Below are positions 3,001-19,890 of a stretch of DNA of 20,883 nucleotides, piece by piece. The DNA is from a virus: positions 1 to 20,883 of IMG/VR virus record IMGVR_UViG_3300021440_000141; one strand, written 5' to 3'. Position 1 is the stretch's first letter, and each line of letters opens with the position of its first letter. The notes under the pieces are model-generated. The model saw nothing but the letters and a program-made list of their open reading frames with translations, was not told where the DNA came from and did not search any database. Both the position numbers and the translations under genes were made by a program.

Positions 3001-6000
3001 AACCATATTGCCGAAATCTGTGTCGTTGGCACCATTCGTAAGTTGTGGAGTAATTAGATATCCGGGTAGTGTTCTCAAGAATAATTCATCAGCCTCATTT
3101 TTCCATACATCAAACCACTGATTTTCATTTACTAGTTTGTAAACACTCCAGTCTTCTGTGAATGTCTTTGCAATCCAAACCGTGTCATTTTCTGCAGGAT
3201 TGAGTACTGAGGTACCCCAATTTACGGCAGTCTGCGATACATCAAAAGATGACCAATCAACATCGTTGAAGTTTACATAACCTGCATTAGGTAATGGATA
3301 TTCAATTCTATCTGTTAATGGAAACCCTAAAGAAAGCTCTGTATCTGTAGGACGAACAATCCATTTATCAACTTGATCAATATCGATATTGACAATATTA
3401 TCTAGGGTAGGATCTCTAACAATAAGACCTTGCCATACACTATATAACTTGTCAAGATTGTTAGGTTCGAGGCCGCTATTAATATCTACGTCCGGTGCAG
3501 ATAGGTAGCCATATCCCTGATCAATTATTTCTACGCGAGAAATTCTACCTGCCGTATCAAGAACGGCATATGCTTTCGCCGTTCTTGTTTCAAGTGTTAG
3601 TGTCCAGTTTGCTTCGACAAAAGGCCCGGGCCCTTGTACTATATTACTTGAATAATATACAAAATTTCCTGTATCATTTACAATTCGAGCAACAGTACCT
3701 ACTCCATACACGGCTGCTGTTGAGAAATCAATCCAAGGACTATTGGGTGTAGGATCTGGACGATCTACAATAATTCTTGGAACTTGAATATATGTATTTT
3801 CTGCATTGACAATGTTAATTAATCTTACGACCCCAATTTCAGAGGGAACATAATTCATTCTGGCAACAATTACTTCGCCTGTATTCTGTTCGGGCTTGAG
3901 AATAAATTCAGTCGAGACCTGCTCAACAGTATTGCCAAAATCTCCTAGCTTTAGTGCCCACTCTTCAAATACCTCGATAATTTCATCAGACTGAACCTTG
4001 GTAGATCTGAATAACTTTTCAAATGCCTGGCTTGTACCCTTCTGTCTAATAGCACCTTGGTAGAATAGATATTGGACATCATTTGACACCTGCAGGTTAT
4101 CGAGGTAGCTCTTGCTCTCGTAACCAATTAGATGACGACCAAGGTCTTCAAGACTCGGATTATCTAACGCAACGTTAGGGTCATAGTAATAACGCATAGC
4201 ATCAACAATGCTATCGTAATTAGGTACAAGCTGATCTTCAATAATGAGATAACCTGGTGCTTCCATCTTTCCGTACCAACCATTACTTCTAAATCCGTTG
4301 AAACGCAATCTCTGCTGTCTCGAACGTAACAACGGCGAATAGACTATGTCATTGAAGTTTGTAACATTATCAAAGATGAGAATATGTTCTGTTTCTGTTG
4401 TATTAACCTGTAGGAAATAAATTCCACCGGACGCAAGGTCAGCAGGCTCGACAGTAATTGTCACGCCTTGCCTATCAGTTGTTGTACCGTTTGGCGGAAT
4501 TGCTACACCAAACTTATCTAGAATACTATATACACCATTTGAAATAGCTTCGACGTCTTCTGGGTATCCGCGAATAGCCTCAAGTGTTGCCCTATTTGCG
4601 AGTGGGCTTAATTGTATAGATGCATCAGGTGCCCACTCGGTATTTAACCAGAATAAGAACTGTTTTGCAGATCCGAGCCAATCACTCAATAGGTTTGTAT
4701 CTTGGTTTACTTCGTCAAATTTCCAACCACGAGATGCTAACCAGGCACCCCATCCGATGAGCATATCGAATACCTCTTGAGCATTATTTAAAATAGAACC
4801 GTAAGGTATTTTTGTAATTGTTGTCAGAGACTCAGGTTTATATGTCACAGACACACCACCCACAATTGGCAATGCTTTTAATTTCTGATAACCACTAGCT
4901 TCAAATTTCTGTACAGTTTGAGTTACAAGACTAATATAGAAAACACCATTGTATCGTACAATGTCTCCCTGAACGTAAGTAGCGCCCGGAGTAAAATAAT
5001 GGAACGGTGCTGGTGTTCCGCCGACAGTAACGTCGATTAGTTTGGCGGTAGATCTATCAAAAACGGTAAACTCAGAATGCAGTAAATCGTATCCGTAGAC
5101 TACAAAGGTACCATCGGCCAACGCACGAATTACCACACCACTGTAGATGTAGGTATCAACTACAGGGCTCTTATGTAGAAATACATCAAAGTTAGTAGCA
5201 GGAATAATTAGACTATTTGTTGTTGATCCGCCGGTAATAGATTCTAGATACATGTTGGTAGTATCTTTGTTTGTAAAACCGGCCAATTTATTAGCTAAGT
5301 TTACATCAAGCGTTCTTACCTTCTGACCGAATGTAGAAGAGACGTCCTTACCTAATAAAAGAATTCTATCACTAATCCAACGCTGATATCCGAATCGTAT
5401 CTGAATTATACCGTCAACTGATTCAGCATGAACAAGTTGGTCAGCATTTTTTGGACGCATCCATGCAAAGAATGGATCGTCGTCTGTGTATAGATCATTT
5501 TGCACATATTGCCAATTGATACTAGACATAACGGTTGTAGTTAAATCTGGACCTGTGGTAGGAATGGTAATCATGTCAGGAGACAATTCTGTTCCTATGG
5601 TGTCGAACATTAATTCACCGTAAGGTCCGGGCCTCATTAGATACAAGAATTCCTGTACACTAAATGCATAAGCCGATGTTGACATCCATGCCTGTTCTAC
5701 AGGACTTCCGTCCCCATATACCCAATCCTTTTCAAATCCATCAAACGGTGCGTAATAATTTCCAGAAAATGCAACATTGAATAAAGTCATTACAGGAATA
5801 ATTTCGCCGGCCGCATCAACCGGAATGAGCGTAGATAATCCGGGGCGTGCCCACATTTTTTGTGGCTGAACAATAAGTGTTATTGGATTATAGATTGCGC
5901 ACGGACCTTGACGAATAATACCGTCCTCGAGGTCGGCCCACATGTTGTTGTTTCCGGCTGCTGTAGATGTCCAAACTTCTTGACCTGCTAGATTCAATAC

Positions 6001-9000
6001 AGGATTTCCGTATTCAAATCTCCACCATGACGGTTCGTCACTAAAGCCCAGCATATTCCAAGGTTGTGTATCTGGGTTATAAGTATCGTAATAGTATTGG
6101 AAAATTCCTTTCCAATTACCTGGTAAATCTAGTGCGTCACCGGTTGGTGTTACAGCATCAGTGTAATTATATAGTTTCCATATATTTCCGACGCCGGGCA
6201 CAAAACTAGGAACTACAGATGGTTCTAGACTTGCGGTAGGCCATTCGTTGGTACGATAGTTTGCCCTATTCTTGGCAGACCATTTATTTAGATATGAAAC
6301 GGTAATATCTAAAAATTCTTGCCTTGAGTATCTTGTTTGTCTAAAATATCCTGTTTCGACCGATTCTACTCTTAAAGGAACACGATATTGATCTCTTAAT
6401 CTTAATTGAAGACCGTTATAGATTCTCTTTTCTAATTCTAATAATAGATCGTCCCTATAATCACCATATGCAATTGTCTTTGATCCGTCATGACCAATAA
6501 TAACATTTGTAGGATTTACATAAGTTGCATCTAATTCAATTCTAGGAATGTAAATTGGGTATGCACCAATCTTCGTAGGAGTAGACGGAATGTATGTAGG
6601 GAGCGGTTCTTTATACAGAGTGAAGTAAACATCCTTAATACCAACACCTAAATTTAATTGAACATCTATTGAGAGATTGGTAGAAATAATTTCATAGTCA
6701 ATTCCCACAAGAAGAATTTGCTCTTGTGTTGGATTAGTTACATCATATACATACAAAACATTTCGTGGATCATTTAAGTCAACATAATCTGTTAAGGTAA
6801 CTAAACTATTTCCACTACCGGTGAATGATTGATTTGCAAATGGCGATCCCTGTGCTGCCATATAGGAATATGCAAATGCATTGGAAAATTCTTTAGAGAT
6901 GTTGAGAATTCGTAGAATTTCACCTACCCAGGCACTAATAACAATTGTATTGTTATTGTATTGAACTGGGCTAAATTCTTGATTAATAAGCTGTTTTGCA
7001 GTGCTTAGATATCTATTCTTAAATTTTGTATATTCATCTTGACTGAATCTTTCAGCAAGAATAAAATCAAGATCATCTGACGATGACACCAACATCGATT
7101 TCAGTATTGGTGCTACGTTCTGTAGGATAAATGTTCCTAATGTTCTGTTTTTACCTAAATCTCTGTAATTATTATTGCCTCCAAAAGCAACACCTGTAAA
7201 GCCAGGTTGATTAGCAATAATAGACGAAAATTGCGGAATTAAATCACTTGCACTAATTTCGCTGACTTCTAACTGTGTAGGATTTGCTTCTAATTGTTGA
7301 GGGATTGCAAAATATCCGGTGGCCGCTGGATCTAATAAACCATGAGTATAAGTTTGAATTTCTACAACAGGTACAACAGTTTGAGTGGTTGTGAATAATG
7401 TTGTTAGATATAATTCTAAATCAACATATATGTTATTATTGATTTCAATAAAAGTATATCCATTAGGATTTGTTAACAGATCAAGAGGAAGAATCTCGGT
7501 ATCATTTACAGATACTATGACATCAGCAAGCGGCTGATAAGGGCCCCCTCCTATAACATAACCGTATGGAGTAACACTTAATTTAAATTGATATTCAGTA
7601 CCGTAACCAACAGCATATTTGTCAATAACTCTTTGCTTACTTGTAGCAGGGCAGAAGACAGGGCCGCTACCGAGATCTATACCAAAAATGACAACATCGT
7701 CGTTCAATGCTAATGCTGTATTGAAAGTAATTTGATTAGGGCCTGTTACTGTATAATTTTCTGTGACACCTTCGAGTTGATAAACTCCATTAACCAATAC
7801 CTGTAGGTATGATTGTCCGTATCCTGCAGGCAATGTGGGAATTGTTGTATTGAAAATAGTTTGTGCAGCAAGTGCTGGTACAGTGTTATAGTCCGGTGGA
7901 TTATCCACCAAAGAATAACCAAAAATAACAACATCGTCGTTCAATGCCAATGCGGCATTGAAGGTAATCTGATTAGGGCCTGTTACCTGGTATGCTCCTG
8001 TAATTCCCTCTAATTGGAATACACCGTTCACATATACCTGTAGGTATGATTTATCTAGGGCTGCAGGTAATGTGGCAAGAGTTGTATTGAAAATAGTTTG
8101 TGCGGCAAGTGATATAAAACTTTCGTAGTCTGGTGGAATAGCAATTTCAGATGAACTATAGATAACCACATCATCATTTGATGCCAGGCCTATGTTAAAT
8201 GTGATTTGATTGGCACCAGTTACCTGGTATGCACCAGTTACGCCCTCTCTCTGGAATACGCCATTAACGAATACCTGTAGGTATGATTGTGTCGGCGAAT
8301 TTGCTATAGTATTGAGAGATGTGTTGAATATTGTCTGTCCTGGACCAGAAACAAATGATTCAAATGTAGGTGCCGACCCATTATCCTCACACTGGCACGG
8401 TTGGTATAAATTCCAGTTATTGTAAAGAATAGGTTCGGTTATTAATTTGTAATAGTAGTAACCATCGATGTCCATTCTATCTGATGTATATGTGTATCTT
8501 TCGGTGATTAAGTCATTCTGAAATACTATGTCAGTCGCTTGACCTAATCCTGTATAAATGATTGGAAATTTCAATACAGGATCAACAGTTGCACCCGGTT
8601 CCGAATTAACCTTGTAAGAAAATATTTCACTACCGTAGAATGTGCTTTCGGGATAGGTAACCGGATCATCAAGTGGAATTCCATTATGATCATACAACAA
8701 GAACAACGGTGGCTGATTTACAGATACCTTGTCATTATAGGCTTTCTGCCATATACCCATACTGAAATACCAGGTCTGTCCTCGTTGAGCACCGTTCCAT
8801 GGTGCGTCTTCTGTAATGAAGACAATATCACCTTCAAGGACAGGTGTTGCCCAAGATGTATATGGTGCAAAATTAATTGTTCCATCGCCTTGTAGATTTG
8901 CCTGGAAAATATAATGACTCATGGTTGTAAAGTCACCTGCATCCCATTCGGTAAATGGAGCAATATCCCAGTTTGCCGTGTCCCATGGATAAAAGTTTGC

Positions 9001-10107
9001 CACCACCGGTGCAAGGTCATTCATGAAACAAACTAGATCACCGTCTTGCATTACGATGTCGAGGTTAGCATTAATAAACGAAAGTTGTTGATTTTGGTAA
9101 TCGGAGAGTAGTATAGGAAACCCAAAGGCATCATCTCTAAATCCGTATTGAATTTCGTCTCTAAATTGTGTTCCTGATTTGTATAGCTCTAAATCAGCAA
9201 TAAACTGAATAATAGGTCTTAGTGCGCGAGATGCATTTGATGGAAATGCGATACCTGTTGCGGCCACTGTGGCATTAATAGCATCGATGTGAAACCATTT
9301 ATTTGTTCTGGACCATGCATTTCTATCTTGCGCACCGCGCTCTATGGTAATATAATCACCATAGCTAGGCATTGCCTGCGTATCCCACGATGTGGCATCC
9401 CAGAATTGATTGTTGATTAATCTGCCATTAGAAAGTTCAAGAATACCATCCCACGGTAAAAATTCAAATAATGTGCCAGAAGTAAAATCTGGAAATTGTG
9501 GTACAAGCCCAATACCCCTACAATTTCCAAAATTCTCCACAATCAATGGTTCCAGATTTAGTGGATCATCCACTAAAAGAATAGTCATACCTGTAGTTAA
9601 TGTTAGATTTGGAGGAGTAGCCGTAGGCGGAGTAGTGTACGATGACTTGCCGATAATATCTGTAGCCAATACACCACTGATGTTAATGGTAGGAAGACCT
9701 TGCTCGACCCAGTAATAATTCTGATAGTTAATAAACATATCATAATCAATTGGTGGTCCAAAGCTATAATATTCAGACTCAAATAGTCTATCTTGATTAA
9801 GTGTATTACCGCCGTAGTATTCTATGCGCTCTAATAAGTCGTCGTAGAAGAAAATATTTGTCTTCTCGCTCTCTGCATTGCGCGAGTAAGCGGTCGGTTC
9901 AAGTTGCCACCAGGTACGGTTCTTAGATGGTTCTGGTAGATAAAAGTCGGAGATCGGATTATAGAAACCTGGATCACGACGTCCAAGATATCCTGCTAGG
10001 TAATCGCTATCTTTCTTTGAGAAAACTTGATCAAACGTGGCGTCAAAGAATTTTCTTTCTGTAACTGTTTGAAAAACTGCTGGCAGTTTCTTGATATACT
10101 GGGTCAT
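1..10107 (-). CDS. Giant virion structural protein, probable baseplate/tail-fibre network component (C-terminus beyond window)
   Basis: One open frame runs from ATG at 10105-10107 to the left edge with no stop, giving at least 3369 residues (roughly 380 kDa). The start is firm: the frame has a stop just upstream (TAG at 10141-10143) and no other ATG between. A weak SD (GGAAA, 10113-10117) precedes it. The N-terminus begins MTQYIKKLPAVFQTVTERKF. Visible parts are three 79-residue tandem repeats (583-819), six GxGY beta repeats (about 2420-2615) with a lone copy near 2201, clusters of WD-x3-WD motifs (236-241, 375-388, 3028-3038, 3334-3352), and a Trp/Tyr-rich block QLWWDLSATRYVYYEQ near 2803. 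There is no signal peptide or membrane segment. It follows gp6, where T4 has gene 7, and has its own late-type promoter. I recall similar very large unnamed structural proteins in aquatic T4-like phages. Homology to T4 gp7 or gp10 is not visible. The virion role is inference from context and composition. Confidence 0.85.
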   Translation of the reverse strand, partial: MTQYIKKLPAVFQTVTERKFFDATFDQVFSKKDSDYLAGYLGRRDPGFYNPISDFYLPEPSKNRTWWQLEPTAYSRNAESEKTNIFFYDDLLERIEYYGGNTLNQDRLFESEYYSFGPPIDYDMFINYQNYYWVEQGLPTINISGVLATDIIGKSSYTTPPTATPPNLTLTTGMTILLVDDPLNLEPLIVENFGNCRGIGLVPQFPDFTSGTLFEFLPWDGILELSNGRLINNQFWDATSWDTQAMPSYGDYITIERGAQDRNAWSRTNKWFHIDAINATVAATGIAFPSNASRALRPIIQFIADLELYKSGTQFRDEIQYGFRDDAFGFPILLSDYQNQQLSFINANLDIVMQDGDLVCFMNDLAPVVANFYPWDTANWDIAPFTEWDAGDFTTMSHYIFQANLQGDGTINFAPYTSWATPVLEGDIVFITEDAPWNGAQRGQTWYFSMGIWQKAYNDKVSVNQPPLFLLYDHNGIPLDDPVTYPESTFYGSEIFSYKVNSEPGATVDPVLKFPIIYTGLGQATDIVFQNDLITERYTYTSDRMDIDGYYYYKLITEPILYNNWNLYQPCQCEDNGSAPTFESFVSGPGQTIFNTSLNTIANSPTQSYLQVFVNGVFQREGVTGAYQVTGANQITFNIGLASNDDVVIYSSSEIAIPPDYESFISLAAQTIFNTTLATLPAALDKSYLQVYVNGVFQLEGITGAYQVTGPNQITFNAALALNDDVVIFGYSLVDNPPDYNTVPALAAQTIFNTTIPTLPAGYGQSYLQVLVNGVYQLEGVTENYTVTGPNQITFNTALALNDDVVIFGIDLGSGPVFCPATSKQRVIDKYAVGYGTEYQFKLSVTPYGYVIGGGPYQPLADVIVSVNDTEILPLDLLTNPNGYTFIEINNNIYVDLELYLTTLFTTTQTVVPVVEIQTYTHGLLDPAATGYFAIPQQLEANPTQLEVSEISASDLIPQFSSIIANQPGFTGVAFGGNNNYRDLGKNRTLGTFILQNVAPILKSMLVSSSDDLDFILAERFSQDEYTKFKNRYLSTAKQLINQEFSPVQYNNNTIVISAWVGEILRILNISKEFSNAFAYSYMAAQGSPFANQSFTGSGNSLVTLTDYVDLNDPRNVLYVYDVTNPTQEQILLVGIDYEIISTNLSIDVQLNLGVGIKDVYFTLYKEPLPTYIPSTPTKIGAYPIYIPRIELDATYVNPTNVIIGHDGSKTIAYGDYRDDLLLELEKRIYNGLQLRLRDQYRVPLRVESVETGYFRQTRYSRQEFLDITVSYLNKWSAKNRANYRTNEWPTASLEPSVVPSFVPGVGNIWKLYNYTDAVTPTGDALDLPGNWKGIFQYYYDTYNPDTQPWNMLGFSDEPSWWRFEYGNPVLNLAGQEVWTSTAAGNNNMWADLEDGIIRQGPCAIYNPITLIVQPQKMWARPGLSTLIPVDAAGEIIPVMTLFNVAFSGNYYAPFDGFEKDWVYGDGSPVEQAWMSTSAYAFSVQEFLYLMRPGPYGELMFDTIGTELSPDMITIPTTGPDLTTTVMSSINWQYVQNDLYTDDDPFFAWMRPKNADQLVHAESVDGIIQIRFGYQRWISDRILLLGKDVSSTFGQKVRTLDVNLANKLAGFTNKDTTNMYLESITGGSTTNSLIIPATNFDVFLHKSPVVDTYIYSGVVIRALADGTFVVYGYDLLHSEFTVFDRSTAKLIDVTVGGTPAPFHYFTPGATYVQGDIVRYNGVFYISLVTQTVQKFEASGYQKLKALPIVGGVSVTYKPESLTTITKIPYGSILNNAQEVFDMLIGWGAWLASRGWKFDEVNQDTNLLSDWLGSAKQFLFWLNTEWAPDASIQLSPLANRATLEAIRGYPEDVEAISNGVYSILDKFGVAIPPNGTTTDRQGVTITVEPADLASGGIYFLQVNTTETEHILIFDNVTNFNDIVYSPLLRSRQQRLRFNGFRSNGWYGKMEAPGYLIIEDQLVPNYDSIVDAMRYYYDPNVALDNPSLEDLGRHLIGYESKSYLDNLQVSNDVQYLFYQGAIRQKGTSQAFEKLFRSTKVQSDEIIEVFEEWALKLGDFGNTVEQVSTEFILKPEQNTGEVIVARMNYVPSEIGVVRLINIVNAENTYIQVPRIIVDRPDPTPNSPWIDFSTAAVYGVGTVARIVNDTGNFVYYSSNIVQGPGPFVEANWTLTLETRTAKAYAVLDTAGRISRVEIIDQGYGYLSAPDVDINSGLEPNNLDKLYSVWQGLIVRDPTLDNIVNIDIDQVDKWIVRPTDTELSLGFPLTDRIEYPLPNAGYVNFNDVDWSSFDVSQTAVNWGTSVLNPAENDTVWIAKTFTEDWSVYKLVNENQWFDVWKNEADELFLRTLPGYLITPQLTNGANDTDFGNMVVLQVIEAQATPIIDDGEPSSNATATATIIHAATATASSPTAPPFGEIHFITVTTAGAGYTFIPTVIISDPPVGGTTATAIANIVDGVIVSIDITNTGSGYLVAPTVTIENPYNVGQILELNPVNIGSGYIVPPGVTILGDGAGATASSVITDGQVTGFTIITPGTGYTIATVSITASPQSPGAITSAIINKTGANYTSAPAVTIIGDGVGATAEAVAVSGAISELNITNTGSGYTFAIIQIAPPPTLSGENNFALGFAFNQTQTDIDPTYNYYNLLTLNANPITLNEVPNYENFTRLMLFKTMRFLVEPGVGTPSYVSLGDHIWVDGVDLTPPHWNVYTSVVPTIQIPTGHQIFRTQEPLINTSLFESASVFGTRTGTELIQLPVYDPFKNILPGPAKQNITYTSMQDPARYNVTADPRLFNENITFGPRQVGQLWWDLSATRYVYYEQPISYNADGTPAESEVDNLVYRRDHWGQIFPGGTVNIYEWVESDVVPELYTGTGTPRDITTYVQIVTSNRFTSATEVKYYFWVLNTTNIPNVENRTMAALDVSRLLQSPKSQGFAFFSPIQQLLTNNSYMFYNVQEILAYQGNNIQVQYRLTERDDQEHTQWQFFREGDPNSIVTDQYWNKMVDSLCAWTKVLPTSDEWLYGIPVGFDIPWDILGWDTTAWDVSFYGEILPVPDPTLSEAEKYGIEYRPRQGMFIRIHDARKVFVQSANELLSHIPVRDDNPGWNAGVTTDDYWTYTNWYKVGYEDAIPTIVFSTLADANAALVAGQLQVGTILQVTQGTLDGRFVLYNVVQLNPNIPALSLEEVAIENSAIKLLDTIYTSVNMYGMSVELRQLLDAFRTQVMVDEFLVDQNELFFAMTNYVLSEQKNPDWLFKTSYIYIKENNIPLMQDRLYTPDEINNIIDFIKDVKPYHTQIRDYTSTYLTSDIAVGTASDSYKINTVLTFGPDNMDYVDPGHWDANCEDELLPGPWDNYAWDVCPPHPYVLNALTFVD
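2263..2850 (-). repeat. GxGY beta-repeat array in the giant protein (about residues 2420-2615)
   Basis: Six degenerate units occur in a row, each with a G-x-G/N-Y turn usually followed by a P/T/V/I strand and often GDG-GATA: GAGYTFIPTVII, GSGYLVAPTVTI, GSGYIVPPGVTI, GTGYTIATVSI, GANYTSAPAVTI and GSGYTFAIIQI. A related single unit, GYGYLSAPDVDI, sits near residue 2201 (about 3480-3520). Units are about 30 to 38 residues. The pattern is typical of beta-rich stalk or adhesin-like segments in phage structural proteins. No enzymatic motif is visible. Confidence 0.8.
7651..8361 (-). repeat. Three in-frame 237-bp tandem repeats (79 residues each) in the giant gene
   Basis: Units lie at 8125-8361, 7888-8124 and 7651-7887 (residues 583-661, 662-740, 741-819). 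The period is exactly 237 bases at landmarks 7690, 7927 and 8164, with no indels. Each unit carries QTIFNT, then SYLQV-VNGV-Q-EGVT, then Y-VTG-NQITFN and NDDVVI. This matches the common phage fibre repeat of the type 'VYLNGVxLxxGxDYT...ITFxxxLxxGDxV', a small all-beta module. Copies 2 and 3 are clearly more alike than copy 1, suggesting stepwise duplication. The third copy decays at its end. Confidence 0.88.
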
Positions 10108-10120
10108 GTAGGTTTCCGAA

Positions 10121-10147
10121 ATAGTAGGTAATGTGTCTACCTACTAT
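10121..10147 (-). other. Perfect 10-bp inverted repeat (hairpin) upstream of the giant gene
   Basis: ATAGTAGGTA (10121-10130) and TACCTACTAT (10138-10147) are exact reverse complements around the 7-base loop ATGTGTC. On the minus strand the hairpin lies between the gp6 stop and the giant gene's start, three bases before its weak SD. No run of T follows on either strand, so it does not look like a standard intrinsic terminator. It overlaps the late-type promoter at 10145-10152. A transcript initiating near 10139 would lack most of the 5' arm, whereas read-through RNA from gp6 could fold it. The structure is seen directly; a function in mRNA processing or translation control is inference. Confidence 0.7.
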
Positions 10148-10152
10148 TTATC
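10145..10152 (-). promoter_or_regulatory. T4-type late promoter (GATAAATA) for the giant gene
   Basis: The minus strand reads GATAAATA, seven of eight bases of the T4 late core TATAAATA. With T4 spacing, transcription would start near 10139 and leave a leader of about 32 bases before ATG at 10107. The same octamer occurs in the two other long gaps in front of minus-strand genes here. T4-type late promoters are read by RNA polymerase carrying the phage sigma gp55 and the clamp-coactivator gp33; those genes are not in this window. Confidence 0.6.
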
Positions 10153-10176
10153 ATAGAAATTATCTACCTATATAAT

Positions 10177-13100
10177 TCAGACGCGGAGGTTTTGATCTGT
10201 CAAATTGTCTACGATTTGAACGTTATTCACGGTAGCAGTTGATAAAAATAACTCTGTAGGTGTCGCTACAATTTCGAACAAGTTACCAAATTGTGAATTA
10301 GCATTGTTAGGAACAATAACAACCGAACTAATAATTCTCGAAAGCTGCTGGTGGATAAATGCGGCTAATTCTGTGTAGAAGAATTTCTCACCAAAGTCCC
10401 AGTTTCTAATATCAAAATAAGTATCAATTGCCTGAATTACCTGTGTCTTGACTTCGTTATCACTTATGTTAGTTGATGGTGCCTTAACAACCTTAAATGT
10501 TGCCTGTAATTCCGATTCTGCAGTAGTTCCAAATAACAATTTAAATGTTCCCGAATTCCACACCATAGCATCGCTAACCATTTTATATTTGTCAAGATCC
10601 TGAAATTGTATTCTCAATTCTTCGGTGGTAGGTGGTGAAGGAAAGGTTAATGCACTTCCATTTGAATTTTTCCAGACGATAACATCTCTATAGTAACTGT
10701 CAGTAATAACAATCATATCAATGATGTTTGTTACAGATGGATCAATTCGCTGATCGATAGGAGCATAATGACTCCATTTGAAATACAACGGGATTCTCTC
10801 GAGTGTTGGTACCGTTGTATTCTGTGTAAATACCTTTCCATTCTTATCGAAGTGATACCTATCTATGCTCTGTAGTATATACCTACCTGTGGGATAATTT
10901 ACAAGATCATTTGTATCTTCAAAATTCAATGCGTAATACACACCAAATCCAGGCGGACTAATAGATGATAAGATATATGACTTATTAAAGAAATAATTTT
11001 TCATTATATCTTGTTTATCTACTACTGAATCTGTTCCTGCCATCCACGGGAATGTAGATACATCGTTGTTGAAAAATGCTGTCAGTTGATTTGCAATCGT
11101 TGCATCTGTACCTGGGTATGGTGGAGAGACAGGAGCCCAGTTAAATTCTATCTGTGATAAATTGTTAACAAACATCAAATCAACTTCATCCATATATACG
11201 TAAATAAACCCAGGGGTTATTACTGTACCGGGGTCTAAAATTTCAGATGTCAATGTCAATTGCATATTAGCAATGTAGGGCGGACTATACAACAATGTAG
11301 GATTTGTTGGATTAACGGGGAAGTAAACAAATAAATCTCCGGTATAATTTTCGAGAAGGGTGTTCCAATTACATACCCAAGGACGTGTGGTTTGATATCC
11401 AGTAACTTCATTATCAACCAGTTCAAATACAATTCTATCAGTTGGTGTAATAATTCGATCAAATCCCTCCGGATCGTCAGGAATACCGTCACTATCGGAG
11501 TCTACCAATGAAACTTCAACCTTAGATGTATCTAAATATCCGTCGTCTTGAATAAACACTCCTGTGATGTTGAATGGCACCTGTACTTTCAGAAAGTTGT
11601 TCGGTGGATCTGTTATTACAGGTTCATTATTATTAACTGTGTTATTTGTATTAACAAGTGGCATAATTTCTATACTATCTTGTAATGCAAGGCCTGTAGC
11701 ACTATCGATAACAACTTGATTAGGTTCCCAGAAGAATCTAACATTTCTATAAGATTCAAATACATAAACTCGACCACGACCAGTGATATCATAGGTAGTA
11801 GTTCCTATTTGGTTGTTGCTTGCAATTGCAACATAGAGTAGACCACCAGCTGCATTTGGTGCCCAATCTGAATAAATTGAGCCAGGAAGTGGGTCTGCAT
11901 ATTCCCATGGTTGGTCAACTTGGTTTGACAATCCGGGGGTTGCTGTTGTTGATGTGTGCCATTCATTTGTCAGCAAATCATAATATAACCAGAACGAAAT
12001 TCCTGCATTAATTGCCAGGGTAATTTCGTCAATTTCGGTTGTGGTCAAATCATTTCTAAATGCTGGATATACCTTTAATGCCTGAAATGTGTTTTGTTCT
12101 TCTTTTCCTAATTCGATAGGGCCTACATTTGCAAAAGGATTCAATGGATTAACAACTAATGGCAGTCCGTATTGAATTACTGAATTAACCGGCACAGAAT
12201 TGATCGTTAACGGTGATGCAAGATTGCCCATATTCAATACTGAGCCATCTGTTATAAATCCCCATGGCTGATATGTTCCGCCGTTGACATTGAGTGGATT
12301 TAACGTGTTTACTAATATCTGGGAATTATCTGTTGCAGGACTATCGCTAAAGAAACCCGTGTCATTCTTAAACTTTACTGGGCTTGTTTTCCAGAATAAA
12401 GAAAGACTTGGGTCACCAACGGTAGGCACCAAATCTAAAAGAGAACGGCCGGTGTTTGGTGGATTGACCCTAATTTTCTCCTCAAACTGCAAAAGATATT
12501 CGTCGTAGAAGAATGTGCTTATCTTACTATTTCTTAATACTTCTTGTATTGTATTAATAAGAATAGTTTCAATATTACCTGAATTGCTCGAATCCTCAAT
12601 AACTTGTGCCAACACATTTTGATTATCTCTAAACAATGCACCGTCTTGACCGAAGATAATCAAATCTCTGTGAAAGCCGGTAGGATCATTTAAATCAAGG
12701 TAACGGCTCTGTCCACTATAGGTTCTGTTAATTGCCTGTAGTTTAGCAATCTGGTTTCCGTATACCAACGGTAATACATTATAGTCACTACCGTTGACCA
12801 TACGAGATTGTGTAGAAAATACTTCTGGGGCACGAAGTTTAATCTGTTCATCGGTTTCGGTTGCAGCAGCATTACCGATAGTCTGTTCAAGATTGAATAC
12901 AATACGTAATGTGTAATTCTGTAGATCCGACCCGATATAAGGAATGTTGATTTGCAAACCTTGTGCATCTGTAGGACGAATTACGAGTGCCTGATTTGCA
13001 CTAATACGAACCCAGAATCTAAATAGCCCTGTAGGAACATTGCCAAAGTTACCATCGGCAAATCTAACAGTTACGGTATCATTTGCACCAGAGATAGCTG

Positions 13101-14091
13101 AGAAAATATTTCTCTCAGAAAACTGAATACTATTGTAGATAATATTTTCACCTGCAAGGGCTGGAACTTTGGCCCACTGTGATAATACATTACCGCTCTG
13201 GTCTGTTTCCTGAACATAGACGTCGGTTTGGTTAATATTTTGTATTTCGATAGGGAATAGTCTATTAGGAACAGGAAACTCAAAGTTGGTATCAATGTTA
13301 ATTAGATTACCCTGTTTGAAGTACAAGAAGAATCCGGTGTTAGCAGATGATACACCTAGACTATCATTTCTATAAATGAAGTTAAATGCATTTGCAGGAT
13401 TTGGATGTCTTTCAAAGATTGTTTCGTTTGTAACAAAATCTGGATTGCAAACGTCAATTGGATATTGTTGCCCATTTATGCTGATGTTTGTTGAGTAGGC
13501 TACACTTAGACCTGTAACGTTGTTTAGTTGGTATAGATCGGTCGGAATTCCGCCGATCTTGCCACTCTTTGTAGGACGACCAAACGGGTTAAGTGAACTA
13601 AATGCTGCATTACAAATCTGTATAAACTGATCAAACCAATCTGGATTGTTTTGATCATTCCAGAAGACTGTTACGTCGTTGATGTTTACACCATTTGCAT
13701 CTGTTAATGGTTGGTCTGTCTGTACAGCGGCAATCTTAAATAGACCACTTGCGGGAATATTTCTGCTAGGTACATAATTGACCATCTGTGCCAAACGAAT
13801 GACACTTTCTCTACGTTCAGCAGTATCAATGAAATTTTCGCGACTATTTAGGTCAGTTCTAAATGCAAGGCTTGTTCCGAAGTATGCAAGCAATTCAATA
13901 ATTGCAATAAATTCAGAACTTTCAATGTAGTCGTTAAAATCTTCAGGATAATAGGTCTGAATATAATTGATTAGAGCCTGCTTTAGAGTATCGAAGTCAT
14001 AAGCAGTATAATCGATGAATTGGTATGCTTTAAAGACTTTCTTATAGTCCTCGGCAGCGAATAGGTTTGACTGGCGAATTGATTCTGACAT
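10177..14091 (-). CDS. 6: Baseplate wedge protein gp6, extended form
   Basis: The 1304-residue product starts MSESIRQSNLFAAEDYKKVF. Its N-terminal block, including ENFIDTAERRESVIRLAQMV and YVPSRNIPASG (roughly residues 84-116), is characteristic of gp6 from T4-like phages. The C-terminal block (about 1150-1304) has the expected NWDFGEKFFYTELAAFI segment. In T4, gp6 dimers with gp7 form the inner baseplate ring and interact with gp25 and gp53. T4 gp6 is about 660 residues, so some 600 extra residues appear to sit in the middle. Within them an acidic loop, D864-S-D-S-D-G-I-P-D-D-P-E875, resembles a calcium-binding thrombospondin-3 or EF-hand-like loop. The start codon overlaps the gp25 stop by one base (TAATG), implying coupled translation; purine-rich AGAGAGAC lies upstream. 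The identity is secure, the insert's role unknown. Confidence 0.93.
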   Translation of the reverse strand: MSESIRQSNLFAAEDYKKVFKAYQFIDYTAYDFDTLKQALINYIQTYYPEDFNDYIESSEFIAIIELLAYFGTSLAFRTDLNSRENFIDTAERRESVIRLAQMVNYVPSRNIPASGLFKIAAVQTDQPLTDANGVNINDVTVFWNDQNNPDWFDQFIQICNAAFSSLNPFGRPTKSGKIGGIPTDLYQLNNVTGLSVAYSTNISINGQQYPIDVCNPDFVTNETIFERHPNPANAFNFIYRNDSLGVSSANTGFFLYFKQGNLINIDTNFEFPVPNRLFPIEIQNINQTDVYVQETDQSGNVLSQWAKVPALAGENIIYNSIQFSERNIFSAISGANDTVTVRFADGNFGNVPTGLFRFWVRISANQALVIRPTDAQGLQINIPYIGSDLQNYTLRIVFNLEQTIGNAAATETDEQIKLRAPEVFSTQSRMVNGSDYNVLPLVYGNQIAKLQAINRTYSGQSRYLDLNDPTGFHRDLIIFGQDGALFRDNQNVLAQVIEDSSNSGNIETILINTIQEVLRNSKISTFFYDEYLLQFEEKIRVNPPNTGRSLLDLVPTVGDPSLSLFWKTSPVKFKNDTGFFSDSPATDNSQILVNTLNPLNVNGGTYQPWGFITDGSVLNMGNLASPLTINSVPVNSVIQYGLPLVVNPLNPFANVGPIELGKEEQNTFQALKVYPAFRNDLTTTEIDEITLAINAGISFWLYYDLLTNEWHTSTTATPGLSNQVDQPWEYADPLPGSIYSDWAPNAAGGLLYVAIASNNQIGTTTYDITGRGRVYVFESYRNVRFFWEPNQVVIDSATGLALQDSIEIMPLVNTNNTVNNNEPVITDPPNNFLKVQVPFNITGVFIQDDGYLDTSKVEVSLVDSDSDGIPDDPEGFDRIITPTDRIVFELVDNEVTGYQTTRPWVCNWNTLLENYTGDLFVYFPVNPTNPTLLYSPPYIANMQLTLTSEILDPGTVITPGFIYVYMDEVDLMFVNNLSQIEFNWAPVSPPYPGTDATIANQLTAFFNNDVSTFPWMAGTDSVVDKQDIMKNYFFNKSYILSSISPPGFGVYYALNFEDTNDLVNYPTGRYILQSIDRYHFDKNGKVFTQNTTVPTLERIPLYFKWSHYAPIDQRIDPSVTNIIDMIVITDSYYRDVIVWKNSNGSALTFPSPPTTEELRIQFQDLDKYKMVSDAMVWNSGTFKLLFGTTAESELQATFKVVKAPSTNISDNEVKTQVIQAIDTYFDIRNWDFGEKFFYTELAAFIHQQLSRIISSVVIVPNNANSQFGNLFEIVATPTELFLSTATVNNVQIVDNLTDQNLRV

Positions 14092-14513
14092 TAGAAAGTC
14101 TCTCTATCTTTTAGGCTGAATGAAACAAATAGATTATCTGTTATCGATTCCGGTTTAAATAATAATACCATAATAACATTTAGTGCTTGATCTTCTTGGT
14201 ATACATCAACAGACACCAATTCAACACGTGGTTCGGATTGTATAACTCGAACAGCATCTTCAATAATTGCATTTTTAGTATACTCATCAAATGGATCAAA
14301 TAATAAATCGTAAATTCGAGTACCAAACGCAGGTAACATTACTCTTGCACCAAGTGGTGTGGCAAAGTGATTTAGGATATCACGTTTAACCAATTCAACG
14401 TTGGTTAGCGAATATGGTGGATTAGGTTGATTAACGGTATTAAAGCCAACAAAATATGGCACCCTTGTAATGCGTTGTTGTTGGACTAATCCTCGTTGAT
14501 TTTGTGCTGCCAT
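14091..14513 (-). CDS. 25: Baseplate wedge protein gp25 (sheath-initiation component)
   Basis: This 140-residue protein belongs to the gp25-like family shared by contractile phage tails and type VI secretion (TssE); T4 gp25 is 132 residues. Characteristic features are the central block LPAFGTRIYDLLFDPFDEYT (residues 60-79) and the conserved EPR motif at residues 94-96, followed by a beta-rich C-terminus. In T4 the family sits in the inner baseplate and contributes to nucleating the sheath. It was once called lysozyme-like, but no catalytic residues are expected or seen. It starts 51 bases after gp5 ends, behind a late-type promoter and an AGGGA SD (14518-14522), and its stop overlaps the gp6 start. 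Confidence 0.95.
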   Translation of the reverse strand: MAAQNQRGLVQQQRITRVPYFVGFNTVNQPNPPYSLTNVELVKRDILNHFATPLGARVMLPAFGTRIYDLLFDPFDEYTKNAIIEDAVRVIQSEPRVELVSVDVYQEDQALNVIMVLLFKPESITDNLFVSFSLKDRETF

Positions 14514-14564: not shown

Positions 14565-16838
14565 CTATGATTGAGTTCGTCTATCACATCCGTTAGGATC
14601 AACATTTTGAACAATCATTGTTATAATTTTAGGACCGCGTGTACCGACCTGAGTAAACCACTTAGATTCTCTCAAAGATGCGCCGGCAAGATCATAATTT
14701 CCTGCCTTCATTGCTGCCAGGAATCTTACAAATTTGGCTAGTCTAGCTTCGCCCATGTTATAACATAGGTCAGCACATGCTCTTTTTCTTACATCTGATA
14801 AGTTACCCCAAACATCAATGCCTAACAATCTTTGGGCACCAGATATAGAAATAGGTGCATCTAACTGGAACCATGTGGATACCTGTGTTGGCGATATTGG
14901 TGTAGGAACGGGAAATTGTGGAATTTCATTTGTTCTTAATAGGTGTCCTATTCCGCCAGTTGGTAAACCTAATGAATCATTATATGAAACATATTTTACA
15001 CCTTCGTGAATCTTAAGCTGGCATTCATATGCCGCCATATTGAAATCTTTAGATACAACACTTTCTTTTGCCGGTGTTGTAGGAAGATCCTTGTTGTTGG
15101 CACCAGGATCAGTATTGGGTGCAGGCGATGTTGTATTTGGGTTACCTGGCCCTGCAGATCCCTGATAAGTTTTAGCACCTTCTGTTTGTGTCGGTTTATA
15201 TCCTGCAATAGATGCGAATGTAAATGTCTCGTGTTCGGGACATGGTTCGTAGGTTGGAAAGGTACTAACCGTTGTTTGAATACCTTCAGAATTTCTTTTG
15301 AATTTAGATTCTGGATCAGCCCATGTTGCAAGAATATTAACTTTCTGTGTTAGCTGTTTTACTTCTGCAGGTGTTACTGCTGGTGGAGTTGCAATGTTGA
15401 CTGCTGGTCCTGCGGTTCCCGGACCACCTGTTGTTGCACCAGGTCCGCTTCTTAGTCCCGGGAAATCTCCGACTATTGTTCCGGCTGTAATTCCGCCCGA
15501 TAAACTTAATGAACTACCGTTAATACTTGAATTTACACCTAGTGTATTACCTAATGCTGTTGCACCAGTAACATCGAGTGTGCCACGAATTTTTACTGCA
15601 CCAACATTTTTAATAGATGGTGCAGTTAGATTATATTCGCCGTCTGCACTCATATCAATTGTTCCGGTAACTTTTAATTCAAGATTTTCACCAATGGTAA
15701 TGTATGAATTTTTCTTAACGGTTGTATGAGTATTACCAAATGCCTGAGTTACAATATTGCCACCAATTCCCTTACCTTCACCGACATATTTGTAAAGTGG
15801 GATGGTAAGCGGTTTAGGAATATTATTGATATCATATGTAAAGGTTGTTGTAGAGTCTACGGTATCCTTGGCAGCTTTCATGAATATGTTCTGGCCAGCT
15901 TCAATATTGATATTTCTATCTGCACGTAAATTAATGTCTTGTTGAGCACGCATAGAAATATTTGCAGCACCAAAAATACTAACATTGCCATTTTGGTCCA
16001 TTTCTACCCAGGCTGTACCATCGCGGTTAATTAAATAGATAAATCCGTTTGTTTCATCTAATCTAATCTGTGCACCGGATTTTGTAGTAAGCTGAACATA
16101 TTCAGTTCCGGAACCGTCATCCATGATAAAGGACGATCCGCCTTTTCTACGAATATTATCCGGTGATGCATTCACATCAACCACAGGGCCCGGTGTAATG
16201 ATACCAAATACGTTACTTGGTGCCTCACGTCTTGCACTAGATGTTGTTACGCCGCGTCCCTGATCTGTTATAAGGCCCTGATTTCCTAATCCCTTAAACT
16301 TTGTTTTTTCGTAAGGCTTTATGGCCCTGTCGGGTATTGTAACCGATCTGTTATTCTTATTGTATTCTGCAATGGGAATTTCTTTCCCTGGATACTGCCA
16401 ATTCTTCACATTGGCGGCCATTGCCGGAACCATGTTATTCATGAACTGATCGTAGAGTGATCCAATCCAAATTCCTTTAGATGCATCGCCGTTAATAAAC
16501 ATTACCAGAACTTGGTTATTGATATCTGGTGGAACCATCCAGAATCCATAAGATGTCTGGGTCATATCAAAGTTCTGGTAATCAGTTTTACTAATTGTGT
16601 TGACGTTTGTGGCTCCAGCAAAAGGCGAACAATAATTTACTGTGATCCAAGATTGTTCTTCGAACGGAGGTGCACCAAATTCGGGAATCCATACCTGTAA
16701 TCTTCCCATCTTTTGAACGTCAGCTACGCCTTTAACAAACCCGACATATACACCGTATAGACCGGTTGTTCTGCCAAGTTGGCGACTTTGCTCGCTGGGT
16801 GTTGATCTCGTTGTTCGTGCGTTAGAATCTAATGCCAT
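14565..16838 (-). CDS. 5: Baseplate hub spike gp5 with C-terminal T4-type lysozyme domain
   Basis: The 757-residue protein forms the puncturing spike and digests peptidoglycan during entry. Residues about 25-135 form the gp5/VgrG OB-fold (GRLQVWIPEFG at 45-55, KGIWIGSLYDQ at 121-131). Residues about 235-460 contain beta-helix-like strands (NVSIFGAANISM, DINLRADRNINIEAGQNIFM, then ITIGENLELKVTGTIDM). A Pro/Gly/Thr/Asn-rich linker spans about 460-600. A T4-lysozyme (GH24) domain ends the protein: E612, D621 and T627 match the T4 catalytic E11, D20 and T26 with identical spacing, and CYNMGEARLAKF and ESKWFTQ match the helical lobe. In T4 gp5 the lysozyme lies between the OB-fold and the beta-helix, so the order is different here. 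The start is three bases after the stop of the preceding hub gene, suggesting coupling. Domain calls are from motif reading. Confidence 0.94.
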   Translation of the reverse strand: MALDSNARTTRSTPSEQSRQLGRTTGLYGVYVGFVKGVADVQKMGRLQVWIPEFGAPPFEEQSWITVNYCSPFAGATNVNTISKTDYQNFDMTQTSYGFWMVPPDINNQVLVMFINGDASKGIWIGSLYDQFMNNMVPAMAANVKNWQYPGKEIPIAEYNKNNRSVTIPDRAIKPYEKTKFKGLGNQGLITDQGRGVTTSSARREAPSNVFGIITPGPVVDVNASPDNIRRKGGSSFIMDDGSGTEYVQLTTKSGAQIRLDETNGFIYLINRDGTAWVEMDQNGNVSIFGAANISMRAQQDINLRADRNINIEAGQNIFMKAAKDTVDSTTTFTYDINNIPKPLTIPLYKYVGEGKGIGGNIVTQAFGNTHTTVKKNSYITIGENLELKVTGTIDMSADGEYNLTAPSIKNVGAVKIRGTLDVTGATALGNTLGVNSSINGSSLSLSGGITAGTIVGDFPGLRSGPGATTGGPGTAGPAVNIATPPAVTPAEVKQLTQKVNILATWADPESKFKRNSEGIQTTVSTFPTYEPCPEHETFTFASIAGYKPTQTEGAKTYQGSAGPGNPNTTSPAPNTDPGANNKDLPTTPAKESVVSKDFNMAAYECQLKIHEGVKYVSYNDSLGLPTGGIGHLLRTNEIPQFPVPTPISPTQVSTWFQLDAPISISGAQRLLGIDVWGNLSDVRKRACADLCYNMGEARLAKFVRFLAAMKAGNYDLAGASLRESKWFTQVGTRGPKIITMIVQNVDPNGCDRRTQS

Positions 16839-16841
16839 ATG

Positions 16842-19601
16842 TTATCCGCGAAAAATTGGTGGTAATCCGGCCAGTGGATTTGGAATAGCTGTAGGAATAT
16901 TTGATGTTAGCCTTGCTGAAGCATCTCCTACAGTTTTACTACCTAATTCAATAATCTGACCCTTTGCATTTCTGACCTGTTCTTGAATACCAGCAATCTG
17001 GTTCGTAAGCTGATTATTAAATACCGCCACTTGGGACAATAGATTATCTGTAGGAATACCGCCCATGATTGTTTGTGTTTTTACAGCAGTAGCTGGAATC
17101 AAATTCTTAGATACAAGGTCGGTCGGCGATGTTGGAACATTCTGTAATTTAGAAGCAGCTTCGAGTTGATCTACAACATTCAGCACTCTAATTTCGGGAT
17201 CAAGTATAGCTTCTAATTCTTGTGTAAATTTTCCACCTTCAAATTTGCTTGTTACTCTTGTTACCTTGTAAACACCACTAAATGTTTCAACATCACTATT
17301 TGGTGTATTTGTATCAGGATTTTCGTCAATATTGAATAGTCGAGGGGTTCTAAATCTCACAATAAAGAAATTATCTGTGCCAACAATATTTACAGAATCG
17401 GTTGCCTTAAAGTGTGCATTCTTGAGCCATTCAATTGCTTCGGATTGTTCTTTTTGGGAGTTGAATATCTGTGTGCCTTCATGTCCCACTGGTTGAGGAA
17501 ATAACCAAAACGGATCTCCCTTAATTGTTAGCCTGATATTTTGAAAAGATCCATCTAACCCACTGTGTAATGCGGTAGAAAACATGTTAGATAATTTTTG
17601 TATTCCCGAATTACTATTAGATTCAACACCTTGACCAATTTGCCTATCTTGCATGGCTTCCATTCTCGCTATAGGACGCAATTTCCCACGAGAGTCTTTT
17701 ACAAAATTTGCATATGCATCAAGAGATGCAGTAGAGGTTGGATCAACATCCGAAATAAAATTATATTGTTTAAGAGAAACTTTTTCTGTGATGGGTTTAG
17801 CTAAATTAGTAGCTCTGGTTCTTACAGAATTTAATTCTCCATTATTATCTATGCCACCCCTGTCCTGAACTTCTTTAAGATAATTTAGTCTACTCTCTGG
17901 CTTAGATTTTTCTAACAAAGTGAGATATCTCGACTGAACCTCAACAGGTAGACTAGATGTTTTTATAGCAACCTGCGCCTCCTCAAATGCCTTGGTAGCC
18001 TCAACGGTATTAGATGTTTTTGCACTATTCTGCATAGATATAGCCGTGTTTAACATAGCCGAAACATTTGCGTCCTCAACAGCATGATCCTGATTTACAA
18101 CACCCTTAGCAGACATTGCAGAGTTTAGATATATACCTCCGAATCTAGCCTGGGTTGCCGTATATGCATTGTTTATAGTTAAATCAAAATTAAGAATTTG
18201 ATCATTTAGACCAGTGAATAGATAATCATACTTTTTCTTAAGTATTTTATTTTTCACATATGTTAATAATCTCTTTCTTTCATCGGCAAGTGTGAGTGGC
18301 GGCGACGACGTTTGAAATACATTAGCATCAAGTATGCCTATATTATATTCTACAATAAAGATTGTAAATTCTTTGGATATGTCCTGTCTACGTGGATCAT
18401 ACTTTAATGGTCTGGTTTCAGTAAAAATTCTCCATATATATTTCATTTGGTTGGGTTCCTGTGTCATAGGAACTCCGTCAGCACCGGGCCGCGGCGCATT
18501 CAGCATCTTTTTCTGAAAATCTGGAGACTGTGATAATAATGTATCAATAACCTTATCGAGCGCCGTATCTGCTGAAAAGGTAGCATCCTTATTTTCAAAT
18601 ATTAAGAAATTATCTGATCTTCGTGAATTTGTATTTTTATCTATTGGTGTAATCTTATATTTTGCTAATTCCGGGTCGACAACAATCTTATATGAATCTG
18701 GAATGCTGGCATTATTAATCAATGTAGCCAATTGAGCAGAGTTTAATCTATCTTCTAATTGCTTCATTGCATCACCGAAGTTTTCAATGTCTGCTAAAAC
18801 AGTATTTTGTTTAATAACAAAGTTTGAATTTGCTTGAGCGTATTCGTTGTAAATAATTGCTGTAATTTCATACCTTGTGCCAACTTCTGAAACGTGTGCT
18901 TTTGTGCTGGTAAATTTAGTTGTCCAGAACCATTTCAGTCCTTCAAGATTTCCCATTGATCCCAGGTTAGCCTCGGACGTGCCGGGCTCTCGTGTCTTAA
19001 ATTCCAATTGCAAATAGATAGGCATAACTGTCCAGTTGCCTATACCGAGGCCGACAGATTGATAGAATAACTTATCCATGAGTCCTGCACCGGATGGTTC
19101 TATAATTTCAAACTTTACATTTGTGGAAATACCTGTTCCCGATTCTACGGTCGGTGTGGTAATTCCTATAATTTCAACCTTATCAATTGTTAGGTCTGAT
19201 ACACCAGATTCAGCAATAATGGTTTGATTAGATGAATTGAAAATTGTTCCCTTTGCAGAACTTTCTGGATCTGTAATAAACAATTTCCAATGGTAGGTGG
19301 CAACATCATAACTATCAAGGATGTTAGGTTGGAATTGAAAGTTAAGTGCAATCTTATCAAAATCCTCTACTGCCGGTGTTGTCACAATATTATCTGTCTT
19401 GTGTGCAATTCCGGGGATAACTTTAGCTGCCGGTGATTGCCTATTTAATCTTGCAGTTTCGGCCATTGACTGATTTAGGGACACACCTGATCTAGCAAGT
19501 CGCGCAGTTTCGGCAGCCGATTGATTGATAGCTGATTTAGTAGATTGAATTTGCGATATTGCGTCCGCCGGGGACATGAATCCTTTAAATATATCTGCCA
19601 T
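16842..19601 (-). CDS. Probable baseplate hub protein (gp27-like role)
   Basis: A 919-residue protein lies between gp53 and gp5, where a hub component that seats the gp5 spike would be expected. Toward the C-terminus (about 770-800) the segment FSGVYKVTRVTSKFEGGKFT followed by QELEAIL resembles the conserved 'Y-V--V-h-f--G-f-t--L' strand pair of gp27 and GpD-type hubs. The N-terminus is helical with a 17-residue duplication. The middle is mixed, including Lys/Arg-rich NKILKKKYDYLF. T4 gp27 is only 391 residues, so this would be a much enlarged version or a fusion. No membrane segment or catalytic motif is visible. The start follows the gp53 stop by one base and has no recognisable SD, so it probably depends on translational coupling. 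The structural role is well supported by context; assignment as the gp27 equivalent is inference. Confidence 0.65.
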   Translation of the reverse strand: MADIFKGFMSPADAISQIQSTKSAINQSAAETARLARSGVSLNQSMAETARLNRQSPAAKVIPGIAHKTDNIVTTPAVEDFDKIALNFQFQPNILDSYDVATYHWKLFITDPESSAKGTIFNSSNQTIIAESGVSDLTIDKVEIIGITTPTVESGTGISTNVKFEIIEPSGAGLMDKLFYQSVGLGIGNWTVMPIYLQLEFKTREPGTSEANLGSMGNLEGLKWFWTTKFTSTKAHVSEVGTRYEITAIIYNEYAQANSNFVIKQNTVLADIENFGDAMKQLEDRLNSAQLATLINNASIPDSYKIVVDPELAKYKITPIDKNTNSRRSDNFLIFENKDATFSADTALDKVIDTLLSQSPDFQKKMLNAPRPGADGVPMTQEPNQMKYIWRIFTETRPLKYDPRRQDISKEFTIFIVEYNIGILDANVFQTSSPPLTLADERKRLLTYVKNKILKKKYDYLFTGLNDQILNFDLTINNAYTATQARFGGIYLNSAMSAKGVVNQDHAVEDANVSAMLNTAISMQNSAKTSNTVEATKAFEEAQVAIKTSSLPVEVQSRYLTLLEKSKPESRLNYLKEVQDRGGIDNNGELNSVRTRATNLAKPITEKVSLKQYNFISDVDPTSTASLDAYANFVKDSRGKLRPIARMEAMQDRQIGQGVESNSNSGIQKLSNMFSTALHSGLDGSFQNIRLTIKGDPFWLFPQPVGHEGTQIFNSQKEQSEAIEWLKNAHFKATDSVNIVGTDNFFIVRFRTPRLFNIDENPDTNTPNSDVETFSGVYKVTRVTSKFEGGKFTQELEAILDPEIRVLNVVDQLEAASKLQNVPTSPTDLVSKNLIPATAVKTQTIMGGIPTDNLLSQVAVFNNQLTNQIAGIQEQVRNAKGQIIELGSKTVGDASARLTSNIPTAIPNPLAGLPPIFRG
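19440..19526 (-). repeat. Duplicated 17-residue helical segment at the hub N-terminus
   Basis: NQSAAETARLAR (residues 26-37) and NQSMAETARLNR (43-54) are 17 residues (51 bases) apart. The alternating Ala/Leu/Arg/Glu pattern predicts amphipathic helix. A repeated helix at a protein end may be an assembly or docking element; this is inference. Confidence 0.75.
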
Positions 19602-19602
19602 A

Positions 19603-19890
19603 TTATTGTTTTAAAATGTTAGCAGGAATAAAAATTTCAAGCCCTGCCACAAAATCATTTATAGGATCGATAATTAGATCCGGATTTCTTATACAGAATA
19701 CCCACCATAGTCTGGGTGTTCCGTATTCTTGTTGACTTAATAGGTCAGGCCTTTGATCAAATGCTGGTGGAATAATAAGTAACTTATCAAAGTCACTAGC
19801 AGGAACATTCCTAGGAACCCATAAGTCGAGGTACCAATCCTTGATAGGTGTTGCCAGATACTGGCTGGTATCTTTTGAATTTTGTGCCAT
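19603..19890 (-). CDS. 53: gp53-like baseplate wedge protein (short form)
   Basis: This 95-residue protein contains QQEYGTPRLWWVFCIRNPDL followed by IIDPINDFVAGLEIFIP (about residues 53-89). That arrangement, tyrosine-glycine, Trp-Trp, N-P-D, D-P, G, then I-x-IP, is the hallmark of gp53 and related LysM-like tail wedge proteins. T4 gp53 is 196 residues, so this is a compact version. In T4 gp53 joins the wedge to the central hub region. The ATG overlaps the preceding stop by one base (TAATG), with AGGA (19899-19902) eight bases upstream as SD. The next gene begins one base after its stop. Confidence 0.8.
   Translation of the reverse strand: MAQNSKDTSQYLATPIKDWYLDLWVPRNVPASDFDKLLIIPPAFDQRPDLLSQQEYGTPRLWWVFCIRNPDLIIDPINDFVAGLEIFIPANILKQ

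Follow-up and report, generated by a model that had tools for sequence, protein, structure and literature searches.

A C-Terminal T4-Type Lysozyme in the gp5-Type Spike Protein of an Uncultured Phage with T4-Type Baseplate Genes

Results and Discussion

The window analyzed here, the whole of a 20,883-base virus sequence whose minus strand carries T4-type baseplate genes, encodes a gp5-type central spike protein in which a lysozyme of the T4 type (GH24) occupies the C terminus, behind an OB domain, octad repeats and a Pro/Gly/Thr-rich linker (Table 1). We put at roughly 0.7 the probability that this protein is the gp5 spike of an uncultured T4-like myophage of the jumbo lineage, a trimer that would bear tethered lysozymes beyond its tip as replaceable cargo and cut the cell wall locally. 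An end-mounted lysozyme is the normal layout in this jumbo-phage lineage, and what is new from the window is an uncultured clade without an M23-like part.

Table 1. Features of the window and of related records (handle given before the coordinates where the feature lies outside the window)
Feature	Position	Strand	Basis
gp6-like baseplate wedge gene	10177..14091	-	PHROG 10646 'baseplate wedge subunit', 1032 bits
gp25 baseplate wedge gene	14091..14513	-	Pfam GPW_gp25, E 5.4e-11
gp5-type central spike / tail lysozyme gene	14565..16838	-	757 aa, single uninterrupted ORF; PHROG 13211 match
C-terminal GH24 (T4-type) lysozyme domain, residues 600-757	14565..15041	-	Pfam, PDB phmmer, AlphaFold/Foldseek, triad
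Pro/Gly/Thr/Ser-rich linker, residues 546-597	15048..15203	-	composition; pLDDT mostly < 50
Conserved end-of-spike segment with 'PTYEPCPEHE', residues 517-545	15204..15290	-	conservation among relatives
Octad-repeat beta-helix part 2, residues ~357-466	15441..15770	-	8-residue period; T4 gp5 BLAST; weak Gp5_trimer_C
Octad-repeat beta-helix part 1, residues 276-326	15861..16013	-	8-residue period; DUF2345; model strands
OB-fold region, residues ~27-130	16449..16760	-	Pfam Phage_base_V; AlphaFold strands 27-128
919-aa virion structural protein gene, directly upstream of gp5	16842..19601	-	PHROG 11190, E 4.3e-51
gp53-type baseplate wedge gene	19603..19890	-	PHROG 7145, E 4.1e-22
Free RaK2-like lysozyme genes	L004 5619-6107; L055 8416-8904; L056 6671-7159; L057 6616-7104; L059 6619-7107		
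gp5 ORFs of His-bearing relatives	L018 725-3139; L038 663-3095		

The Lysozyme Domain and Its Catalytic Residues

The placement of a lysozyme over the last 158 residues, proposed by an earlier sequence-only reading, is borne out by the open reading frame and by Pfam, PDB and Foldseek matches. Pfam Phage_lysozyme matched residues 610-729 with an E value of 9.5e-7, exceeding the curated cut-off, and residues 607-741 aligned to T4 lysozyme in a phmmer search of the PDB (E 2e-10), a search that picked up T4 gp5 through its lysozyme region only. AlphaFold2 was run on the window protein together with 27 relatives and returned a monomer in which the lysozyme domain (601-753) was predicted with confidence, with pLDDT mostly 75-92 across residues 601-750; Foldseek matched this modelled domain to T4 lysozyme (TMt 0.79, E 6.5e-9), so that the predicted structure has the T4 lysozyme fold. 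The remaining regions were of low confidence, as one would expect when a single chain of an intertwined trimer is modelled alone. With profile, sequence and structure searches concordant, a spurious lysozyme match is ruled out.

The proposed triad also held: E612, D621 and T627 align with the E, D and T of T4 gp5. The triad is kept in 43 of 46 relatives, which suggests selection on the enzyme. The nearest named lysozyme, that of phage C48C1 (39%), is a free gene with no spike fusion. T627 corresponds to the catalytic Thr at position 26 of T4 lysozyme. This Thr is replaced by His in the relatives L018 ('GLLHGGIGHL') and L038 ('NLLHGGIGHL'), and L012 deviates at the same position ('GGICGGVAHL'). 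A scan of viral contigs for further T26H lysozymes returned nothing beyond the query. An engineered T26H variant of T4 lysozyme is reportedly a transglycosidase, going by the title of a 1999 study by Kuroki et al. that PMC9213883 cites, and the natural T26H lysozymes of L018 and L038 may therefore use a retaining mechanism to cut the wall.

Domain Order and the Octad-Repeat Region

PHROG 13211, 'baseplate hub subunit and tail lysozyme', spans residues 20-326 of the protein (E 1.2e-62). Within this stretch, Pfam Phage_base_V, the phage/T6SS OB domain, matched best over residues 95-129 (E 3.6e-10), and the OB match is present in all 28 full-length relatives. Between the OB domain and the lysozyme, Pfam returned two sub-threshold matches, DUF2345 at 291-324 and Gp5_trimer_C at 358-406, the former recurring in 26 of the 28 relatives.

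The octads read GNVSIFGA/ANISMRAQ/QDINLRAD/RNINIEAG/QNIFMKAA. Hydropathy showed a period of 8 at residues 276-326, matched by 0 of 2000 shuffles, as for the helix of T4 gp5 (428-575; likewise 0 of 2000) analyzed as a control; the period was weaker at 357-470 (P 0.03), and the same test gave no 8-residue period in the linker region (467-600). In the AlphaFold model a strand recurs about every 8 residues from ~277 to 335, and one-to-one BLAST aligned residues 358-414 with the T4 gp5 beta-helix at 506-562 (E 0.001). The second part of the repeats differs in length among relatives. These periodicities and matches make a beta-helix of the gp5/VgrG kind a well-supported assignment, on sequence grounds, for the middle region, in line with the prediction made from the letters of this stretch.

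The resulting domain order is unlike that of T4, as had been claimed. In T4 gp5, run as a control, the OB domain was recovered at 33-173, the lysozyme at 183-310 and the helix repeats from 484; the two proteins have in common an OB domain, an octad beta-helix and a T4-type lysozyme with the same triad, but in T4 the lysozyme comes after the OB domain and ahead of the helix, whereas that of the window protein (601-753) follows both the OB match (95-129) and the repeats (276-466).

The Layout among Relatives and Named Phages

The sequence-only reading had stated that the layout would be known rather than new if most relatives shared it, and they do. An IMG/VR scan yielded 48 uncultured relatives, two of them cut by the contig end; in all 46 whose contigs reach the region, the lysozyme follows the helix region in frame. 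Six named jumbo phages sharing the N-terminal part (RaK2, 121Q, GAP32, CBB, XbC2 and Vibrio 2.275.O) also carry a C-terminal GH24 domain in one chain, which rules out a layout peculiar to the window phage. RaK2 gp078 (886 aa) was described in 2013 as having 'a very unusual domain composition', with a beta-helix between two regions and the lysozyme C-terminal, unlike T4 gp5 (PMC3622015), and a passage of the 2017 CBB paper places the OB domain of gp5 at the N terminus and the lysozyme at the C terminus, with a possible M23 domain (PMC5259590). Both accounts set this order against that of T4, and the architecture is therefore already known.

OB domain, beta-helix and C-terminal GH24 stand in one chain in RaK2 gp078, CBB_240, GAP32_234 and 121Q_587, as in the window. 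GAP32 and RaK2 differ in having an M23-like domain between helix and lysozyme; M23-like matches, all weak, were obtained for RaK2, GAP32 and Vibrio 2.275.O beside GH24, and an M23 match was found neither in the window protein nor in the 28 aligned relatives. RaK2-like gp5s further differ in lacking the conserved PTxEP segment described below. They may have acquired their lysozyme independently: a single fusion ancestral to the window-clade and RaK2-like fused lysozymes, which the tree separates, was weakly rejected with free RaK2-like copies included (AU p 0.02). The test run without these copies rejects more strongly, but it is not a fair test and was set aside. These free copies, each a second lysozyme gene near or adjoining gp5, have an intact E-D-T triad, group with the fused lysozymes of the same phages and look like a duplication.

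Gene order around gp5 matches that of PA5oct-like and RaK2-like phages, and the neighbourhood of gp53, large structural protein, gp5, gp25 and gp6 is the same in GAP32, CBB, XbC2 and 121Q. From its position, the 919-aa structural protein would take the hub (gp27-like) role. An ORF at 1-10107 (3369 aa, open at the window edge) is a giant structural ORF; inside it, at ~7.7-8.4 kb on the minus strand, three near-identical tandem motif copies like 'SYLQVFVNGVFQLEGVTGAYQVTGPNQITFN' are visible by eye.

GH24 is absent from the gp5 chain of PA5oct/Paride, SCTP-2, Atu_ph07, Phosso and XacN1. Among named phages, PA5oct/Paride (Arenbergviridae) has the N-terminal part nearest to that of the window: its gp5 shows 54% identity across 99% of residues 1-325, lies in a similar gene order and ends in a related FEPCPEH segment, but it is 477 aa long with no lysozyme past that segment. 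In Synechococcus phage S-SSM5, the gp5 annotated as tail lysozyme (L064 16254-18797) has an OB match, no detectable GH24 and, by eye, a long helical-looking stretch separating the OB match from repeats at the C terminus; the genome has a GH24 match in a different protein (9784-12645). That cyanophage thus does not have the window layout.

A Conserved Segment Precedes an Exchangeable End

The region between helix and lysozyme (467-600) had been called a long flexible linker. Its ends are indeed of low complexity, and 90% of residues 546-597 are drawn from PGSTANQDEK; the middle (~491-545), however, is conserved, so that the region is more than a tether. The lysozyme-free homologues of PA5oct-like phages and SCTP-2 terminate within 5-8 residues of the last His of the motif '(N/P)T(F/H)EPCP(E/D)H', and in the window clade the same segment precedes linker and lysozyme. 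A 'PT[YHF]EPxxxH' segment was seen at the ends of the L002 and L053 gp5 proteins, and in L054 and L060. In the alignment, L025, L030 and L041 carry an inserted stretch immediately before the conserved segment, and a CBM_5_12 match occurs in the gp5 of 6 of the 28 aligned relatives.

The segment might form the tip, dock PAAR or bind metal. PAAR proteins turned up in PA5oct-like phages, SCTP-2 (a match with internal stops), Atu_ph07, Phosso, T4 and L041, a 362-kb record; they were not detected in RaK2, 121Q, GAP32 or Vibrio 2.275.O and are absent from the records of three shorter relatives (82-131 kb, likely fragments). T4 aside, this split coincides with presence of the segment, which, with few lineages checked, is only a lead. 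The one PAAR protein of L041 is encoded ~130 kb away from gp5, so that its role as the tip of that spike is only assumed.

What follows the segment varies. The gp5-type protein of the Agrobacterium phage Atu_ph07 (L054, 4.0-6.6 kb) continues past it into a stretch that matches the lysozyme of phage lambda (E 7.6e-6) and ends in a predicted trypsin-like serine protease domain (Pfam Trypsin_2, E 6e-17); phage tail spikes bearing a protease, as this match suggests, are unusual. Phosso (L060) has the segment followed by other cargo and resembles Atu_ph07 by eye. XacN1 carries an SLT_3 domain without the conserved segment. With lysozyme-less homologues ending at the segment and others bearing different enzymes, the distal end looks like a slot for swappable cargo. 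Closer to the window, its N-terminal part pairs with that of L018 (100/99 support, 83% identity), whereas the two lysozymes are 52% identical and fall into separate groups of the lysozyme tree. This conflict suggests that the C-terminal module has been swapped between close relatives.

A more tentative proposal, which we hold to be somewhat short of an even bet, generalizes this pattern: the end past PT[YH]EPxxxH would be a modular slot for exchanged, unrelated enzymes, the phage counterpart of evolved VgrG, with the L018 and L038 lysozymes possibly using a retaining mechanism. For a specialist, the points worth following may be the natural T26H variants and the pattern of a cargo slot.

A Model for the Spike and Its Alternatives

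Based on these data, a model can be drawn in which three chains would form the spike, the OB domains plugging the hub and the octad repeats building a triple beta-helix; homology identifies the parts, and the trimer is extrapolated from it. Past the helix, the chain would lead through the 'PTYEPCPEHE' segment and a Pro/Gly-rich tether of about 50 residues into the T4-type lysozyme, an order read off the sequence. When the sheath contracts, the outer membrane would be pierced by the spike, and the three muramidases tethered past its tip would thereby reach the periplasm and cut peptidoglycan locally, letting the tube pass. Placement of the lysozyme at the membrane-facing tip of the spike is plausible. 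The T4 gp5 chain is cleaved during maturation; such a cut was said to be inapplicable here, and rightly, since a C-terminal lysozyme leaves no equivalent position between lysozyme and helix. As a replaceable distal module, the lysozyme would not need that cut.

Chain order does not by itself fix where the enzymes sit. They could fold back on their long linkers and pack beside the beta-helix in a T4-like arrangement, and the ~130 residues from helix end to lysozyme (467-600) would suffice to reach back. The linker ends, however, are of low complexity, vary strongly and in some relatives include CBM_5_12, features that fit a loose tether better than a docking path, and we regard folding back as unlikely. 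Slightly less probable again is a proteolytic release of the C-terminal lysozyme, while the particle assembles or later, that would leave it to work as an independent enzyme, either soluble or bound to the baseplate. The established processing of T4 gp5 lends this some support, as does the free lysozyme of the same type encoded beside or near gp5 in RaK2, 121Q, GAP32, CBB and XbC2; yet inspection of the alignment revealed no conserved cleavage motif, and CBB_240 peptides were detected in virions, according to a passage that gives no position within the protein (PMC5259590).

That the domain is a lysis endolysin fused by chance to a structural protein is very improbable. In its favor, the sole Phage_lysozyme match in the 362-kb L041 record is the gp5 domain, but a lone GH24 says little, the search of L041 for lysis enzymes having covered GH24 only, and the domain is covalently part of a spike gene within a baseplate cluster. 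The tethered, end-mounted lysozyme is the preferred reading.

Implications

Among known systems, the nearest working analogy is evolved VgrG. Such proteins, for example VgrG-3 of Vibrio cholerae, bear a peptidoglycan-cutting extension past the spike's C-terminal end (PMC5471719), and the window protein likewise has its enzymatic extension after the beta-helix. The window protein is nevertheless no member of VgrG: VgrG belongs to the T6SS and has a gp27-like part fused in the chain, whereas in this phage baseplate protein the OB domain lies near the N terminus with no gp27-like match before it, and the structural gene upstream is separate.

For the window alone, the outcome is a confirmed, already described architecture. 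More generally, a contractile tail can carry its wall-cutting enzyme elsewhere than between hub and spike, attached beyond the spike end as in evolved VgrG. Such a layout makes the spike end a natural point of enzyme attachment, and distal attachment is a simple route by which phages may alter how they cut the wall.
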